Positions 7,583 through 14,403 of a stretch of DNA of 49,335 nt are shown here, in pieces; the first letter of the stretch is position 1, and the number at the start of each line of letters is the position of its first letter. This DNA is from a virus, in IMG/VR virus record IMGVR_UViG_3300031839_000948, positions 1-49,335 of that record; one strand, written 5' to 3'. Made by a program: the position numbers and the translations under genes. The notes under the pieces were generated by a model, which saw only the letters and a program-made list of their open reading frames with translations, was not told the DNA's origin and made no database searches.

Positions 7583-7816
7583 GATGATTGCATACATGTG
7601 TGTGCCGTGTGCCGTGTGCGCTGCGGGCTGAGTCTCCGGTGCTCACCCTCGACAGGCGAAGACACGCAGGCATGATGCGCGTGTAGAGATCTTTCTCCCT
7701 TCGGGAGGGAGTGGTTCGGCTTGACTGCCTGTTGACCCCAGGTTAAGCCCTCCGAGGACCGGCAAAAAAACCGGCCATCAACCCAGTTCGGCAAAGTCCG
7801 ACGTTAAGGAGCAGAC
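7583..7816 (+). promoter_or_regulatory. Structured leader of the DUF932-like gene
   Basis: This 234-base gap has no credible gene. In order it holds a GTGTGCCGTG-rich segment (7591-7627) resembling 13667-13702, a hairpin CTCCC-TTC-GGGAG, a TTGACT box, the operator-like TTGACCCCAGGTTAA (7732-7746), a CCGG-N8-CCGG hairpin (7769-7784), the CAAAGT-loop hairpin (7788-7801) and the ribosome site AAGGAG. A reading on the opposite strand covers it but looks like low-complexity noise. It probably contains both promoter and post-transcriptional control for the following gene. Confidence 0.5.
7788..7801 (+). promoter_or_regulatory. CAAAGN-loop hairpin before ribosome site (copy 1)
   Basis: TCGG-CAAAGT-CCGA forms a four-pair stem with a six-base loop. 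AAGGAG starts five bases later and ATG 7817 follows. Three further hairpins with loop CAAAGA or CAAAGC and different stems stand in the same place before minus-strand genes. Confidence 0.55.
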
Positions 7817-9619
7817 ATGTTTACATTTAATTATACAAACCCAGACGGTGATATCGTAGAGTTTACTGATTCCAATAAGGAAGGCGCAAGAGACCAAGCG
7901 CAACTTGCTTTCTTTAAGGATTACAGGGCTGGTCTTTGGCAAGGTAAGCCTACTGATGGGTGTATTAACGAATCCGATAACACTACAGAAGACAAGCCAG
8001 AGGAAGACAATACATATGCATTGACTTCGGACGGCACCACACCATCTATTGCTAATGGTAATACATGGGAGGAATCTGTAATAAATGAAGAGACTCCGGC
8101 TAAGGTAGATGAAAAGCCGTTCTCATACATGGACCAGTTCATGCAAGATGCTCCCGCAGAGCAACCCCCTGCGGAGGAAGATGTCGAAGACATGGCTTCA
8201 GACTATGAGCAAACCAATGATGCAATGGATGCTGTATCGGAGGACATGAACCCTGTTGAGCCAGCCCCTACATTCCAAGGTGGCTGGGGTTCTGGTGACA
8301 ATGGAGTAAGCAACCACAGCGATAAGCGTACTGTTAATTACAATACAGTCAGCCAAGTTGCAGTCGAGCGTCAGAAGAATCACGATACGTGGCTTGCAGA
8401 CCTTGGGTTGTGCCGACCCCCAGAGAATATCTCTATCACAAAGGCAGGATACAATCGTGGTACTGCTGTTGTTGACCTTGGCTACGATAACCTTGCTGCT
8501 GCTCGCACTGTATGGGATGAGAAGCCGGATGCATACGTTGCTACTACACAGTTCATGGACATGATTGCATCAGAGAATCGTGAAGACATGGACTTTACGT
8601 TGTCTTCATTGAGAATGAATGACGATGGTATGCTTCAGACTACATGTGGTGACCTTGCATTAGAGGAGCACGGACTAAAGCAGTTGCTTGCAGCCACACA
8701 GCGTGGTTCTGGTTTTGATATGCATTCCGATGGTCCACTATTCCCACGTGGTTTCCATACAATGAAGAGCCTTGACCCAGACGTTAGAGCTTATGTATTC
8801 AATGAGCATATGAAGCGTCACTGCAGCCTCGATAAGGCAATGAAGTTCCGTACTCGTATGTCTGGTGGTGTTCGTAGTATCTTCGGTGTCGTTGGCCAAG
8901 GGTATAAGTCATATGATGCAGACCAAGTTGCAAACATGATTCGCATGGCTGTTGATGACATGCCTTACAAGGCAGAGATTCAATACAATGCAGCCACTAC
9001 CAACTTCACAATGGACGTTACAATGCACGCTCCATCAGACCTGACTGACTTTAGTGCAGGTGATTTGTATGAGGTTGGATTCCGGTTCAAGAGCAATGAC
9101 CGTGGTGGTGGCTCCATTAACGGTAATGCTATTGCGTTCTGGAATGAATGCCTGAACATGATCATCCTTCACAGTGAGAAGGCTGAGATTATGAGAGCAA
9201 TCCACAAGGGTAATATGCAAGAGAAGATGGAGGCTATCCGACAGGGTATGGCTGATGCCCGTCCTGCAATGGAACGGTTCGCTCAGGACTGGGGCCTTCT
9301 TGGTGAGACGCCAATCCATACTGCACTTACAACCAGGGATATGGAGGACTATGGATTGCCTGGTGAGGTCCATGCACATACACTATTGCGTAAGATGGTA
9401 GCGACTGGAGAGATTGGTTCGGGACTCGGACGTGATGCTGCAGTGCAGATGCTATTCGATTCCTATGCAGACCAAGGTGGAGGTGGCAGCATTCAGGATG
9501 TCATCAATGCAATCACACGTATGGCTCATCAAAACCTCGTCAACGATTGTGCTCGTGACACATTGGAGAGGGAGGCCGGACTGTTGGTCCCCGCGTATGC
9601 CAAAGCTGCTATCGCATAA
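7817..9619 (+). CDS. DUF932-like phage/plasmid protein
   Basis: The 600-residue protein has an acidic, low-complexity segment at residues 45-165 and a conserved-looking core beyond 180. The core shows the DUF932 pattern: SIFGVVGQGYKSYDADQV (about 353-370) and, near 415-440, VGFRFKSNDRGGGSIN followed by AFWNECLNMII, like the family's SD-G and C-N-G blocks. DUF932 proteins are common in phages and plasmids; their function is not established. The gene has an elaborate leader, a candidate operator and a strong ribosome site, so it is probably an abundant early product. Alternative: an unrelated fold sharing these motifs. Confidence 0.6.
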   Translation: MFTFNYTNPDGDIVEFTDSNKEGARDQAQLAFFKDYRAGLWQGKPTDGCINESDNTTEDKPEEDNTYALTSDGTTPSIANGNTWEESVINEETPAKVDEKPFSYMDQFMQDAPAEQPPAEEDVEDMASDYEQTNDAMDAVSEDMNPVEPAPTFQGGWGSGDNGVSNHSDKRTVNYNTVSQVAVERQKNHDTWLADLGLCRPPENISITKAGYNRGTAVVDLGYDNLAAARTVWDEKPDAYVATTQFMDMIASENREDMDFTLSSLRMNDDGMLQTTCGDLALEEHGLKQLLAATQRGSGFDMHSDGPLFPRGFHTMKSLDPDVRAYVFNEHMKRHCSLDKAMKFRTRMSGGVRSIFGVVGQGYKSYDADQVANMIRMAVDDMPYKAEIQYNAATTNFTMDVTMHAPSDLTDFSAGDLYEVGFRFKSNDRGGGSINGNAIAFWNECLNMIILHSEKAEIMRAIHKGNMQEKMEAIRQGMADARPAMERFAQDWGLLGETPIHTALTTRDMEDYGLPGEVHAHTLLRKMVATGEIGSGLGRDAAVQMLFDSYADQGGGGSIQDVINAITRMAHQNLVNDCARDTLEREAGLLVPAYAKAAIA

Positions 9620-9628
9620 CAATACAAA

Positions 9629-9687
9629 GGCCGGTCCCATTTCGGGGCCGGCCCATCCAACTACACCTACAAAGAAAGGTAAATATA
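9629..9687 (+). promoter_or_regulatory. Hairpin plus conserved leader (copy 1)
   Basis: GGCCGGTCCC (9629-9638) pairs with GGGGCCGGCC (9644-9653) over a five-base loop, followed by CATCCAACTACACC and ACAAAGAAAGGTAAATATA before ATG 9688. There is no T-run, so it is not a standard terminator. A near copy with different stem bases stands at 9901-9960. Confidence 0.75.
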
Positions 9688-9900: not shown

Positions 9901-9960
9901 GGGCTGGCCCCATACTGGGGCTGGCCCATCCAATTACACCTACAAAGAAAGGTAAATACA
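9901..9960 (+). promoter_or_regulatory. Hairpin plus conserved leader (copy 2)
   Basis: GGGCTGGCCCC (9901-9911) pairs with GGGGCTGGCCC (9917-9927), eleven pairs with two G-T, around a five-base loop. The following CATCCAATTACACC and ACAAAGAAAGGTAAATACA differ from copy 1 at only two positions, while the stem bases differ but still pair. Confidence 0.75.
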
Positions 9961-10797: not shown

Positions 10798-10821
10798 GCT
10801 AATCCCAATAGCAGACAAAAG

Positions 10822-10858
10822 AAAAGCCCCAGGGGAGTAATCCCGTGGGGCTTTTTTG
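10822..10858. terminator. Rho-independent terminator, probably bidirectional
   Basis: AAAAGCCCC and GGGGCTTTTTT pair around an inner GGG/CCC stem (AGCCCCAGGG...CCCGTGGGGCT). A T-run follows on the plus strand and an A-run precedes it, so it can stop both the rightward block ending at 10797 and the leftward block ending at 10877. Confidence 0.88.
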
Positions 10859-10876
10859 TATCAGTAATGTATTGTA

Positions 10877-11059
10877 TTACATATGGTGTTTAACTACCAT
10901 CCAGGTTTCAATAGCGCAGATAGCCTTACTTTTTTCTTGTCCATGCCAGAAGACATTGAACCTATCGTTACCACGCTTTGTGACGTAGCCCTTTCCAACC
11001 TTGATTATCCACAAGCCCTCATCAATAGCGTCACGATAATATATATTAGGCGTCGGCAT
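10877..11059 (-). CDS. Small accessory protein, unknown function
   Basis: A 60-residue protein starting MPTPNIYYRDAIDEGLWIIK, with strands WIIKVGKGYVTKR and RFNVFWHGQE. No family recognised. ATG 11059 is coupled to the preceding stop by GGAGGTGAGTAATG. It is the last gene of this leftward block. Confidence 0.6.
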   Translation of the reverse strand: MPTPNIYYRDAIDEGLWIIKVGKGYVTKRGNDRFNVFWHGQEKSKAICAIETWMVVKHHM

Positions 11060-11381
11060 TACTCACCTCCTTCGTTTAGTTTTATAGTAATAAAGCTTCC
11101 ATCCCACTCATTCCCATTCAGGTGAAGCACTGACCCGCTATTGTATACCCGTACATTGGGAAGCCCGTTAAGGCGTTCCCTTGTTGTCATTGTATTCCAA
11201 CCGTCGGTTGTAATATCAATCTCGTCATTGCAGTCACGTTGTGCAATCAGATTGTCGAAGAGGTATAGTCCAACCCACCCGTCCTTCGTTGCAATAACCT
11301 GAGTATTGTCTCTACCGAAATGCTTGCCTTCCATAAAGGCTTTACATGCGTCTCTTGTAATGGCTCGCATCACTCACCTCC
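11057..11381 (-). repeat. Two further GGAGGTGAGT(G/A)ATG junctions
   Basis: The same stop/ribosome-site/start junction as at 2782-3874 recurs at 11381-11368 (GGAGGTGAGTGATG) and 11070-11057 (GGAGGTGAGTAATG). Both upstream proteins end Glu-Gly-Gly-Glu. Confidence 0.9.
11059..11370 (-). CDS. Small phage accessory protein of a widespread type
   Basis: The 103-residue protein begins MRAITRDACKAFMEGKHF and includes NTQVIATKDGWVGLYLFDNLIA, GWNTMTTRERLNGLPNVRV and VLHLNGNEWDG. I recall this pattern (GWNT-TTRERLN, LNG-WDG) from many phage and plasmid proteins of unknown role. It ends Gly-Gly-Glu. ATG 11370 is coupled to the previous stop by GGAGGTGAGTGATG. Confidence 0.7.
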   Translation of the reverse strand: MRAITRDACKAFMEGKHFGRDNTQVIATKDGWVGLYLFDNLIAQRDCNDEIDITTDGWNTMTTRERLNGLPNVRVYNSGSVLHLNGNEWDGSFITIKLNEGGE

Positions 11382-11735
11382 TTCATTGCAATCATCCCAG
11401 TCATCATCATCATCGAACTCGGGGAATGCATCGCCCCATTCTGATGCTGTAATGCCCGTTTGTATGAACTCTCGGTGCTCAGCATTGATGCCAGTGAATG
11501 CAATCTGCGATGACTCTTCAGACATCCATAGTCTGAGCATACTTATTGTAAGTCCATCGATGTAGATATCTCTGGTCTCACCTGTCAGCATTGACGTCCT
11601 TCGGATTACAAGACCACTATCTAATAGAGTCGGGTCTATATCCTTCGGATATACAACCATACTATCAATACGCTGCTCAATCTCAGCATCAGTTGGCTTG
11701 TATAGTGCCTTGCTTATTACGTTTGTAATGTCCAT
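11370..11735 (-). CDS. Acidic accessory protein, unknown function
   Basis: From ATG 11735, behind AAGGA, the 121-residue protein starts MDITNVISKALYKPTDAEIE and ends in the acidic run FDDDDDWDDCNEGGE. The middle has DSGLVIRRTSMLTGETRDIY strands. No family recognised; a negatively charged tail can mimic DNA or bind basic partners, but this is speculation. The CAAAGA-loop hairpin lies just before its ribosome site. An in-frame start at 11786 would read through that hairpin and is unlikely. Confidence 0.62.
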   Translation of the reverse strand: MDITNVISKALYKPTDAEIEQRIDSMVVYPKDIDPTLLDSGLVIRRTSMLTGETRDIYIDGLTISMLRLWMSEESSQIAFTGINAEHREFIQTGITASEWGDAFPEFDDDDDWDDCNEGGE

Positions 11736-11750
11736 TTGTCTCGTCCTTTG

Positions 11751-11766
11751 GACCGTCTTTGCGGTC
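11751..11766 (-). promoter_or_regulatory. CAAAGN-loop hairpin before ribosome site (copy 2)
   Basis: On the minus strand GACCG-CAAAGA-CGGTC forms a five-pair stem. AGGA follows three bases later and ATG 11735 after a further eight. Confidence 0.65.
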
Positions 11767-11831
11767 TCTATTGTGCTTGATTGCACAGTATAGATGCTGG
11801 ATACAATAGACCCAGCACCTATCCAATGTAA

Positions 11832-12011
11832 TCAGGCGGCTCGTCTGTGTAGCTCTACGGTCACCATATGGAGTTGCTTGCCCCATTGTTTGTACCAATA
11901 GCGTTGGTCGTCCGTCTGATAGTCACGATACCGCTCCCTTTGCTCATAGTATTTGCGCTCAAGTCTCATGAGTTCATCGAGGCTAACGGTCTGGATATAC
12001 TTTGTATTCAT
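11832..12011 (-). CDS. Small protein of 59 residues, unknown function
   Basis: A short but well-supported gene: ATG 12011 (MNTKYIQTVSLDELMRLERK) follows GAGGAG with six-base spacing, and that GAGGAG encodes the final Glu-Glu of the upstream protein. The protein is helical and rich in Tyr, Gln and Arg (YYEQRERYRDYQTDDQRYW) and ends with LHRRAA. Codon use is normal. No family recognised. Confidence 0.7.
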   Translation of the reverse strand: MNTKYIQTVSLDELMRLERKYYEQRERYRDYQTDDQRYWYKQWGKQLHMVTVELHRRAA

Positions 12012-12014
12012 TGT

Positions 12015-12296
12015 TTACTCCTCGTTATCTGGGTCGCCATACTCACTGGATTGTGGCTCATTACACTGTACGCAGTACTGTGGAGGCCCTTCCCAATAAA
12101 TATCAGTATACCCGGCTTGCCAGGTACCATATCCATTGATGGAATCGTATACTATTTCGCGCCACTCCTCACGAGCGCACCGATTACATATCCGTTCACT
12201 ATCCCTTAAGTAAAGGGCTATTGTATACCCTCCAGTATACGGTCTCCTGATGGCCTCCTTTAGTGCGTGCAGTCGGTACTGATATTGCTGTAGCAT
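12015..12296 (-). CDS. Small zinc-ribbon-like accessory protein
   Basis: The 93-residue protein has two CxxC pairs, CNRC (37-40) and CVQC (75-78), typical of a zinc ribbon, with GGYTIALYLRDSER and EIVYDSINGYGTW strands between. The start is ATG 12296 behind AAGGA and a CAAAGC-loop hairpin. It ends Asn-Glu-Glu, the Glu codons forming the ribosome site of the next gene. Substrate unknown. Confidence 0.68.
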   Translation of the reverse strand: MLQQYQYRLHALKEAIRRPYTGGYTIALYLRDSERICNRCAREEWREIVYDSINGYGTWQAGYTDIYWEGPPQYCVQCNEPQSSEYGDPDNEE

Positions 12297-12310
12297 TTGT
12301 ATTGTCCTTC

Positions 12311-12326
12311 ACCCGGCTTTGCGGGT
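12311..12326 (-). promoter_or_regulatory. CAAAGN-loop hairpin before ribosome site (copy 3)
   Basis: On the minus strand ACCCG-CAAAGC-CGGGT forms a five-pair stem, followed two bases later by AGGA and then ATG 12296. Stem bases differ from copies 1, 2 and 4, but the pairing and loop are kept. Confidence 0.65.
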
Positions 12327-12365
12327 CTTATTGTGTATGTATTCAATCGAGGTCGAGTATGTATG

Positions 12366-12398
12366 TAGTCACCCCTATCAATACGATAGAGGTGACTA
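12366..12398. other. Long hairpin between two leftward genes
   Basis: TAGTCACCCCTATC (12366-12379) and GATAGAGGTGACTA (12385-12398) pair over 13 of 14 positions around a five-base loop. There is no T-run on either side, so it is not a clear intrinsic terminator; it could protect or delimit the transcript, or be a palindromic protein-binding site. Confidence 0.6.
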
Positions 12399-12427
12399 TG
12401 AAGCAATCCCATAGGATTACAATGGCG

Positions 12428-13273
12428 TCAAGCACTGTACGTGACGTGGAAGTGTGTACCGTCGAACCCTCCGATAGTCGCACCCTCAAGGGCAGCCAGT
12501 GTGGCTTGCAATGAGTCAGCAGATACCTTGATTGTAGACGCCGTAGGCTTTGCCTTAGGCATTACAGGCTTCGGCATCACAATACGCGCTGGGGCAATAG
12601 GCGCTGCCTTGACGGGTGCTGGCTGAGTACGCTTCGTGTGGATTGTCTGAGGCTTGGACTGCAGCGAAGTCTTTGCGGCTTTCCATGCTGCGTTCCACTC
12701 TGTGGCGGTAAAGCCCTGAGCCTTGCGATTGCCTGCATAGCGACCATATGAGCCCACACCACACATCTCCTCAGGGGTAGGCGCTGGGCATTCCCTGGCC
12801 TCTGTGGATTGTGTGACTGGCGGTGCCTTTGTGGCCTGGTCTCCGTACGCTATTGTATGAGCGCTGGGTGCCTTGGCTGCCTTAGGTGCCCCTGGCTTAG
12901 GTGCATCGAATACTCCGTATTGGCGATTGCATTTGGTGCCAGCGGACAAGGTCTTTGGGTCTGCATTGAATCCAGCAGACTGGAGAACCTTTAGGTTGTG
13001 CTGTCCAATGTGCCAGCCCTGGTATTGTGTCCATACACCGCCCTTGCTTGCCGCCCAGCGGTAGCGAGGGAGCTTGCCATGGGTACGCTCCATAGCCACA
13101 ATCTCCGTAGGAGAGAGCTTAATGTGCCCAGGGTGTGTACCGGCAACAAAGTTGCCCATCGCAATGAGTTGATTCAGGGTTCCAATGTCGAGACCCTCTG
13201 GGCTCGTCAGCATAATGCCGGTCTTGACGCAGTGGAGGGACTTAGGGTCGAGTGTGACTTGTGTAGCGGTCAT
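12428..13273 (-). CDS. Protein of unknown function with Ala/Pro/Lys-rich linkers
   Basis: The 281-residue protein has three parts: an N-terminal region (1-115) with LNQLIAMGNFVAG, KLPRYRWAASKGGVWTQYQGWHIGQHNLKVL; a linker rich in Ala, Pro and Lys containing CGVGSYGRYAGNRKAQGFTATEWNAAW; and a C-terminal module SADSLQATLAALEGATIGGFDGTHFHVTYSA. Low-complexity linkers suggest a multi-domain scaffold or DNA-associated protein. No family recognised. ATG 13273 has AGGAG and a CAAAGC-loop hairpin in front. It is the first gene of the leftward accessory block. Confidence 0.65.
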   Translation of the reverse strand: MTATQVTLDPKSLHCVKTGIMLTSPEGLDIGTLNQLIAMGNFVAGTHPGHIKLSPTEIVAMERTHGKLPRYRWAASKGGVWTQYQGWHIGQHNLKVLQSAGFNADPKTLSAGTKCNRQYGVFDAPKPGAPKAAKAPSAHTIAYGDQATKAPPVTQSTEARECPAPTPEEMCGVGSYGRYAGNRKAQGFTATEWNAAWKAAKTSLQSKPQTIHTKRTQPAPVKAAPIAPARIVMPKPVMPKAKPTASTIKVSADSLQATLAALEGATIGGFDGTHFHVTYSA

Positions 13274-13287
13274 GATGTGCTCCTATG

Positions 13288-13354
13288 GGTTCGCTTTGGA
13301 ACCGTGTTGTAGTTGCCAGTCGACTACCGACCGGCCCAAACAGAAGAACACGGT
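13288..13354 (-). promoter_or_regulatory. Structured 5' leader with CAAAGN hairpin (copy 4)
   Basis: On the minus strand GGTTC-CAAAGC-GAACC (13303-13288) lies three bases before AGGAG and ATG 13273. Immediately upstream, ACCGTGTT (13301-13308) and AACACGGT (13347-13354) form a perfect eight-pair stem enclosing an inner GTAGT/ACTAC hairpin. The two structures share three bases, so they may exclude each other, as in a switch. Confidence 0.5.
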
Positions 13355-13433
13355 GGGAGGAATGATGCAAGCCAGATTGGCGCAAATCAAGATTCCCCGA
13401 AGGGGGATTTCTGAAAAAACTTGTTGGAGCCTT

Positions 13434-13468
13434 GTGTGCTTGCTGGGTGCCTTTCGTGTGCTTGCTGG
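13434..13468 (+). repeat. Direct repeat, 13 bases at 22-base period
   Basis: GTGTGCTTGCTGG occurs at 13434-13446 and 13456-13468, start to start 22 bases, about two helical turns. Only two copies are present. Confidence 0.75.
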
Positions 13469-13842
13469 TGTAGGGACATGACCAGCGGACTGTGAGCCAG
13501 TGTAGGGGTGATAGCTGGCTACGGTGTGTGTGAGAGGATGAGAGATGGAGAGAGGGGATAACATCCACTTGCATTGAAACTCATCACAAACAACGTGTGA
13601 TTCCAATCGTGTGTATTGTTCTACATGGGTGTGATTGCAATGGTGGGTATGTATGCATCATGCGCGCATCATGTGTGCGCCGTGCGCGGGTGTGCAGGCG
13701 GGTACCCCCAGGGGGGCGTGTCCCCCCCCGAGACATATCTGATACTATAGATACACCCCTTCTAAAAAAAATACCCATTTTCAAACTGGACTTCCCTACA
13801 TCGTTCTCGTAGGTACTTAAATAGTTTTTCGTTTACCGGGTG

Positions 13843-13979: not shown

Positions 13980-13993
13980 ATTGGTGTTAGCGT

Positions 13994-14010
13994 AGTAACA
14001 GGAGGTTACT
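13994..14010 (+). promoter_or_regulatory. Hairpin presenting the first late ribosome site
   Basis: AGTAAC (13994-13999) pairs perfectly with GTTACT (14005-14010), leaving AGGAG as the loop, and ATG 14011 follows at once. An alternative hairpin, GTTA-GCGTAG-TAAC, uses the same TAAC and would free the site. Confidence 0.5.
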
Positions 14011-14403
14011 ATGGACTATGCTGCTGAGGCTAAGGAAGCCCTTAGGTTAGTTACTTTGTTGGAGCGTCAGTTCCACGAGAGTGAACTTTACTGTGAGTCT
14101 GGTATTGAGTCTGACGGAGTCTGGTTTCGCTGGAGTCCTAAGTTACGACAAATACAGTATCGTGAAGACTTAGATGACTCGTGGTCTCATGTGGCCAGAG
14201 TATTTAAGATGGAGATACCGGGTATACTATTAAAGAATGCCGAGGCTTTGTATGAGTCTTGCTTGTCTGAGCAAAGTAGAGTTGCTACTGTTCTTTCAGA
14301 AGCCACTGAGACAGGTGGAGAGTTTGCTGATAGACTAGCGAAGAACTTAAGTGAGGGTAACGAAGATGGCCGCAACATCGGACGCACTAGCGATTACAAC
14401 TGA
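14011..14403 (+). CDS. First late gene, unknown function
   Basis: A 130-residue acidic protein with helical segments AAEAKEALRLVTLLERQF and ILLKNAEALYESCLSEQSRVATVL, and a beta-like core GVWFRWSPKLRQIQYRED. No family recognised. AGGAGG precedes the ATG. The end overlaps the next gene. Its position between the late promoter and the packaging genes is a common place for small late regulators or head proteins. Confidence 0.68.
   Translation: MDYAAEAKEALRLVTLLERQFHESELYCESGIESDGVWFRWSPKLRQIQYREDLDDSWSHVARVFKMEIPGILLKNAEALYESCLSEQSRVATVLSEATETGGEFADRLAKNLSEGNEDGRNIGRTSDYN

Follow-up and report, generated by a model that had tools for sequence, protein, structure and literature searches.

A small hairpin with a loop of the form C-NNN-G-N stands directly before the ribosome-binding sites of accessory genes in an uncultured phage and its relatives, with a stem that varies in sequence while its pairing is kept. 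We regard the motif itself as near certain to be real. Our tentative reading, which we rate just short of probable, treats the hairpin as an RNA element acting in cis, the site for a trans-acting and probably phage-encoded RNA-binding protein through which initiation at the accessory genes would be controlled; confidence in the mechanism overall is moderate. The element is unmatched in Rfam (release 15 matched only tRNA in the phage sequence, with nothing credible in 11700-13450) and is broader than the three copies of the preliminary description.

The window, the whole 49,335-bp virus record that was analysed, contains terminase, portal, major head protein, endolysin-like, DnaB helicase and Rad52-like genes. 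The closest isolate terminases are ~23% identical to its own, its capsid and 600-aa protein found no match among isolates, and a host search found no relative in genome contigs and no close isolate. The relatives used for comparison are other uncultured contigs (G002, G004, G005, G008, G009, G010 and G016), forming a small sample in which some entries are fragments and start codons were set by simple prediction rules. Clear copies of the hairpin drop with distance of the relative, with two in G010, one in G016 and none in G017.

The preliminary description had placed hairpins with CAAAGN loops before three leftward genes. All three are present to the base, with AGGA 2-3 nt and ATG 14-15 nt downstream (Table 1, sites A to C). 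These copies stand, whereas the restriction to leftward genes and to CAAAGN does not, as the element also occurs on the plus strand (site D) and its constant part is rather C-NNN-G-N. The whole window contains six CAAAGN hairpins with a stem of at least 4 bp, and an SD-like sequence follows only those at sites A to D. In the window, all sites fall within the accessory block at 7.7-13.3 kb and belong to genes that have an intergenic gap to themselves. A subtype, ACCTA-CAAAGA-AAGGT, has an A-A mismatch adjoining the loop and carries AAGG inside the stem; besides the two copies in the window, a third is found in the relative G002 (58731-58746). The window alone is a small sample, and the relatives carry the case.

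Table 1 Features of the hairpin sites and their surroundings (window positions unless a contig is named).
Feature	Position	Strand	Remarks
Site A hairpin GGTTC-CAAAGC-GAACC	13288-13303	-	before 281-aa ORF starting 13273
Site A Shine-Dalgarno AGGA	13281-13284	-	from sequence
Site A 281-aa ORF	12428-13273	-	no family; position conserved in group
Site A upstream inverted repeat GCCGGTCG-GTAGT-CGACTGGC	13315-13335	-	dyad also in G004, G002 and G005, with different sequence
Site B hairpin II GACCG-CAAAGA-CGGTC	11751-11766	-	before 121-aa ORF starting 11735
Site B hairpin I TGTGC-AATCAA-GCACA	11772-11787	-	loop AATCA kept in 5/6 leaders
Site B hairpin 0, long stem	11790-11822	-	from fold; strong covariation, 8/11 pairs change on both sides
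Site B Shine-Dalgarno AGGA	11744-11747	-	from sequence
Site B 121-aa ORF	11370-11735	-	phrog_20898, no known function
Site C hairpin ACCCG-CAAAGC-CGGGT	12311-12326	-	before 93-aa ORF starting 12296
Site C Shine-Dalgarno AGGA	12305-12308	-	from sequence
Site C 93-aa ORF	12015-12296	-	phrog_18452
Site D hairpin TCGG-CAAAGT-CCGA	7788-7801	+	before 600-aa ORF starting 7817
Site D Shine-Dalgarno AAGGAG	7806-7811	+	from sequence
Site D 600-aa ORF	7817-9619	+	no clear family; relatives' versions 60-65% identical
Subtype ACCTA-CAAAGA-AAGGT	9665-9680	+	before ORF 9688; one stem mismatch
Subtype ACCTA-CAAAGA-AAGGT	9938-9953	+	before ORF 9961; one stem mismatch
Sites with the order GC-rich hairpin, linker, hairpin, SD	window 7788, 9665, 9938; G002, G004, G005, G008
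Long intergenic hairpin CCCTGAACGAAGTGAAGGG	L005, L008, L009, L138, L136		before site D and other plus-strand sites

Across the group, the element consists of a stem of 4-6 bp, in most cases 5 bp, the hexaloop C-NNN-G-N, and then AAGGA or AGGA, with the start codon usually 12-15 nt off and unpaired, A/C-rich flanks around the hairpin. In a hand tally of 21 hexaloop sites, base 1 was C, base 5 was G, and the last base was A, C or T and never G. The hexaloop is mostly CAAAG followed by A, C or T; its middle triplet is mostly AAA, with some GAA, CAA and TAA, and loops lacking the last base are a plain C-NNN-G triloop. Variants exist, with loops CAACGA, CATCGA, CTATG and GAAAGT at some sites (the last at a G009 site near a G005 site, outside the tally) and stem mismatches at others; the site at G004 28200 is without a clear SD. 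The base pattern suggests a C-G pair across the loop with a free last base, which would make the loop a pseudo-triloop. Such loops are 1-3 kcal/mol stabler than expected, and in other RNAs of this type a real triloop sometimes substitutes (PMC8466369). Part of the loop constraint could therefore be structural, stemming from the stability of the pseudo-triloop itself.

Comparison of orthologous leaders revealed covariation of the stems. Thirteen leaders from orthologous gene positions had 96.2% of cells paired, with a covariation score of 0.947 against 0.222 for shuffled controls and at most 0.16 when slid; this count omits the site D leaders of G002 and G004 and the G005 site B triloop and includes two G008 site-B-type leaders found via the motif, so that it somewhat flatters the motif. 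C1 and G5 were both present in 12 of the 13. At site A, the window stem GGTTC/GAACC corresponds to GGCTC/GAGTC in G004, GGTCC-CCAAGT-GGACC in G002 and GTCC/GGAC in G005, and the compensatory changes persist even at a protein identity as low as 32-42%. Site B reads GACCG/CGGTC in the window, GAGCA-CAACGA-TGCTC in G004 and GACCA-CAAAGA-TGGTC in G002, with two copies in G008 and a true triloop, TCCGC-TAT-GCGGA, in G005. For site D, TCGG/CCGA in the window is matched by GCTGG-CGAAGT-CCGGC in G005 and CCGG-CGAAGT-CCGG in G008, and the two odd leaders still form hairpins with another loop (GTCGGT-AGT-ACCGGC in G002, GCCGG..TCGGC in G004). G-U pairs occur in the stems. With stems that covary and pairing that is kept in orthologous leaders, the data support the earlier proposal of a selected RNA structure. 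The site B leader precedes a different gene in G002 than in G000 and G005, as expected of a modular regulatory site, and non-orthologous genes carry the element too, including one of the pyrimidine-dimer glycosylase kind.

The loop is also enriched in the group. Among 454 group leaders, C1/G5 hexaloops were closed by a stem of 5 bp or more at 28 of 807 positions (3.5%), compared with 82 of 14629 (0.56%) for the remaining loop classes taken together (Fisher p = 1.5e-12). The corresponding counts were 29/4295 (0.68%) and 269/51737 (0.52%) for 1648 leaders of unrelated contigs, and 1/412 and 28/6966 for three isolated phages. CNAAG loops lay in 5-bp stems at 15/118 leader positions in the group, 4/307 in unrelated controls and 0/40 in the three isolated phages, and 12/102 in the group once the window was removed; CAAAG ranks first as loop word among all pentamers.

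A covariance search in related phages, suggested in the preliminary description, recovered further copies in the held-out relatives G004, G010 and G016. For the model, R1, only the window and G008 served as training data; it scored 27.2 and 23.7 bits in G004, 24.8 in G010 and 25.4 in the later-found G016 (range ~20-27), while the best score in 496 kb of control contigs, preselected for CCGCAAAGNCGG before AGGA and ATG, was 19.3 bits, a maximum below which some true sites fall. Isolates gave at most 14 bits. The idea that the motif is general across phages was rejected, since in the 120 matches listed from a scan of viral contigs (at least 119 stretches) for CCGCAAAGNCGG-AGGA-ATG the outer flanks pair at about the chance level. 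The hairpin was likewise not found in the leaders of homologous genes of Vequintavirinae, Xanthomonas, Stenotrophomonas and Gordonia phages.

Additional structure lies upstream of the element at sites A and B. The site B leader, from 11822 to 11751, folds by prediction into three tandem hairpins, with a z of -5.4 for the window, -4.3 for G004 and -4.2 for G002. For upstream hairpins 0 and I, 94.8% of cells were paired over six leaders, with a score of 0.754 against 0.227 for shuffled leaders; the predicted minimum-energy fold of G002 favours another pairing over hairpin I. A T7-like promoter reading of CACAATAGAGACC was rejected, as the scanned window proteins include no phage RNA polymerase and the upstream bases form covarying hairpins. 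In contigs of other phages, hairpin I occurs alone as GTGC-AATCAA-GCAC before AAGGA and ATG (L164 568-591, L167 5914-5938), and a search with the hairpin I pattern GTGCAATCAAGCAC..CAAAG returned mostly unrelated sequence. A recurrent long intergenic hairpin, CCCTGAACGAAGTGAAGGG, lacks a U-run and lies a few tens of nucleotides upstream of the CNNNGN hairpin.

Constrained folds were used to examine how the hairpin might act. When it was barred, SD accessibility was almost unchanged (19 sites), and so by prediction the hairpin alone neither hides nor frees the ribosome site; SD masking or insulation through folding was accordingly rejected. UUCG or GNRA loops were found in 0 of 80 hairpins at the leader position, indicating that bare stability is not a full account of the loop. 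Together these two results favour a shared binding protein, and protein recognition is also what the constancy of the loop points to. Given its evolutionary preservation, the element probably serves as a common on/off handle in the production of accessory proteins. The element lies in leaders of genes of the phage group that are non-structural and initiated independently; in the mechanism that we propose, its constant loop would be read there by one trans-acting RNA-binding protein, probably encoded by the phage. Placed at the edge of the 30S footprint, the bound protein would jointly regulate initiation at the accessory genes, with repression through steric clash likelier than activation. The window proteins that were searched against Pfam showed no RNA-binding domain, and the site A protein was rejected as a candidate regulator, its AlphaFold model being weak (pLDDT 64) with no fold match.

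The main rival to such a protein-binding site is 5'-end protection or a processing stabiliser, which we consider possible but doubtful. Here the message would be cut, or would start, upstream in the A/C-rich linker, leaving the hairpin at a new 5' end where it would block 5'-end-dependent decay, and the upstream GC-rich hairpin present at several sites would do likewise for the message before it by covering its 3' end. This account requires no specific protein. Several sites do show the order of a GC-rich hairpin without a U-run, an unpaired A/C-rich linker, the hairpin and the SD (Table 1), the independence of SD accessibility from the hairpin is in keeping with this account, and a pseudo-triloop is unusually stable (PMC8466369). 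However, the other stable loops, UUCG and GNRA, are absent at the hairpin position, the three middle loop bases are dominated by NAA, and the spacing of the hairpin is fixed to the SD and not to any mapped 5' end.

Direct enhancement of translation is improbable. The hairpin would in that case dock on the 30S platform, or help S1 and the adjacent unpaired sequence in mRNA capture, with no regulator involved, consistent with the near-constant spacing to SD and start (12-15 nt at most sites), the unpaired A/C-rich linker preceding the stem, and the location of sites at genes with an intergenic gap of their own, not at overlapping starts. Against it, the hairpin was not found before virion genes, which would profit most from an enhancer, the identity of the loop is hard to account for, and predicted accessibility is unaltered. 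More improbable still is a promoter or operator dyad acting at the DNA level, as proposed for the ESAS inverted repeats of cluster K mycobacteriophages, which hold putative SigA promoters (PMC11373665). Dyads do lie upstream at sites A and B, but the half-sites of the hairpin differ wholly between copies, the non-palindromic loop is fixed and always sense before the SD, the stems include G-U pairs, and 10800-13800 contains no sigma-70-like site on the leader strand. Chance, or sequence conservation by descent alone, is already disfavoured and scarcely credible: the stem is short, copies per genome are few, and the sequence around site D in the window does not fold preferentially into the hairpin, but compensatory changes in orthologous leaders, even between the diverged site A genes, the CNAAG enrichment without the window and the held-out match in G016 all speak against it.

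The nearest systems in kind are the SAS and ESAS of cluster K mycobacteriophages (PMC3203893, PMC11373665), in which a short repeated element in sense orientation likewise lies by the starts of some non-structural genes of one phage group, with inverted repeats upstream at some genes and a role that is also unclear. SAS is one fixed 13-bp sequence containing the SD, whereas the hairpin leaves the SD outside and retains its pairing and loop through changes of sequence. The consensus of SAS, GGGATAGGAGCCC, had only two matches in the window, with 3 mismatches each, below the chance expectation. In loop shape, the nearest is the iron-responsive element (IRE; PMC8466369), which can also lie in a 5' leader and shares a five-bp upper helix and a C-NNN-G-N hexaloop whose last base is not G, the cross-loop pair of the phage hairpin being read from sequence. 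IRE membership was rejected, as the phage hairpin has no bulged C and no lower helix, its triplet is mostly AAA and not AGU, and it belongs to a bacterial virus; there is no reason to expect an IRP-type partner. Hairpins I and II of site B resemble the tandem hexaloop hairpins of ANTAR dual-hexaloop leader RNA (PMC8934654), and membership was rejected on loop bases and terminator overlap: the loops CAAAGN and AATCAA lack A1 with G4, the SD directly follows hairpin II, and no terminator-like site occurs there on that strand. The gp43 and gp32 operators of T4/RB69 (PMC3014915) are leader RNA structures bound by a phage protein that represses initiation, and that of gp43 is, like the phage element, a hairpin with a constant loop. 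These operators serve the autoregulated gene, with the gp43 hairpin ~40 nt upstream of the start, whereas here several genes share a hairpin 12-15 nt before the start. A broader proposal, which we think rather unlikely, is a phage-wide post-transcriptional regulon in which one phage-encoded RNA-binding protein would read the pseudo-triloop that precedes the ribosome site in several accessory genes, the module moving between genes and the IRE-like loop having been reached independently.

Phage accessory genes are mostly regarded as passive operons. If the protein-binding reading is true, one recognition event would let the phage control a group of its accessory genes post-transcriptionally, and nature would have supplied a pseudo-triloop recognition system that could serve as an RNA tag. 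The 16-nt hairpin is a small, precise target for finding the partner protein, and with it the start-associated elements of phages gain a second example next to SAS/ESAS.

Several observations concern the genes and leaders around these sites. Public records annotate phrog_18452 as 'DNA ligase' (Vequintavirinae), a name that is unlikely for the site C protein because it is only 93 aa long. For the site B ORF, the ATG after the SD is preferred over the listed GTG start at 11786, which would place the hairpin inside the gene. A 30-codon ORF (window 12343-12435, minus strand) overlaps the stop of the 281-aa gene and encodes a small hydrophobic peptide, MLDAIVILWDCFIVTSIVLIGVTTYILDLD; a similar peptide is found at the same place in G002, G004 and G005. 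On the plus strand (13985-14011), the hairpin TGTTA-GCGTAG-TAACA adjoins GGAGG before ORF 14011, where GTAAC-AGGAG-GTTAC would give the SD a loop position like that in SAS. In Salmonella phage SSBI34 (L175), which represents another phage group with repeated leader hairpins, the starts of two adjacent genes are both preceded by a leader hairpin of another sequence, GCGACACAACGTCGC.
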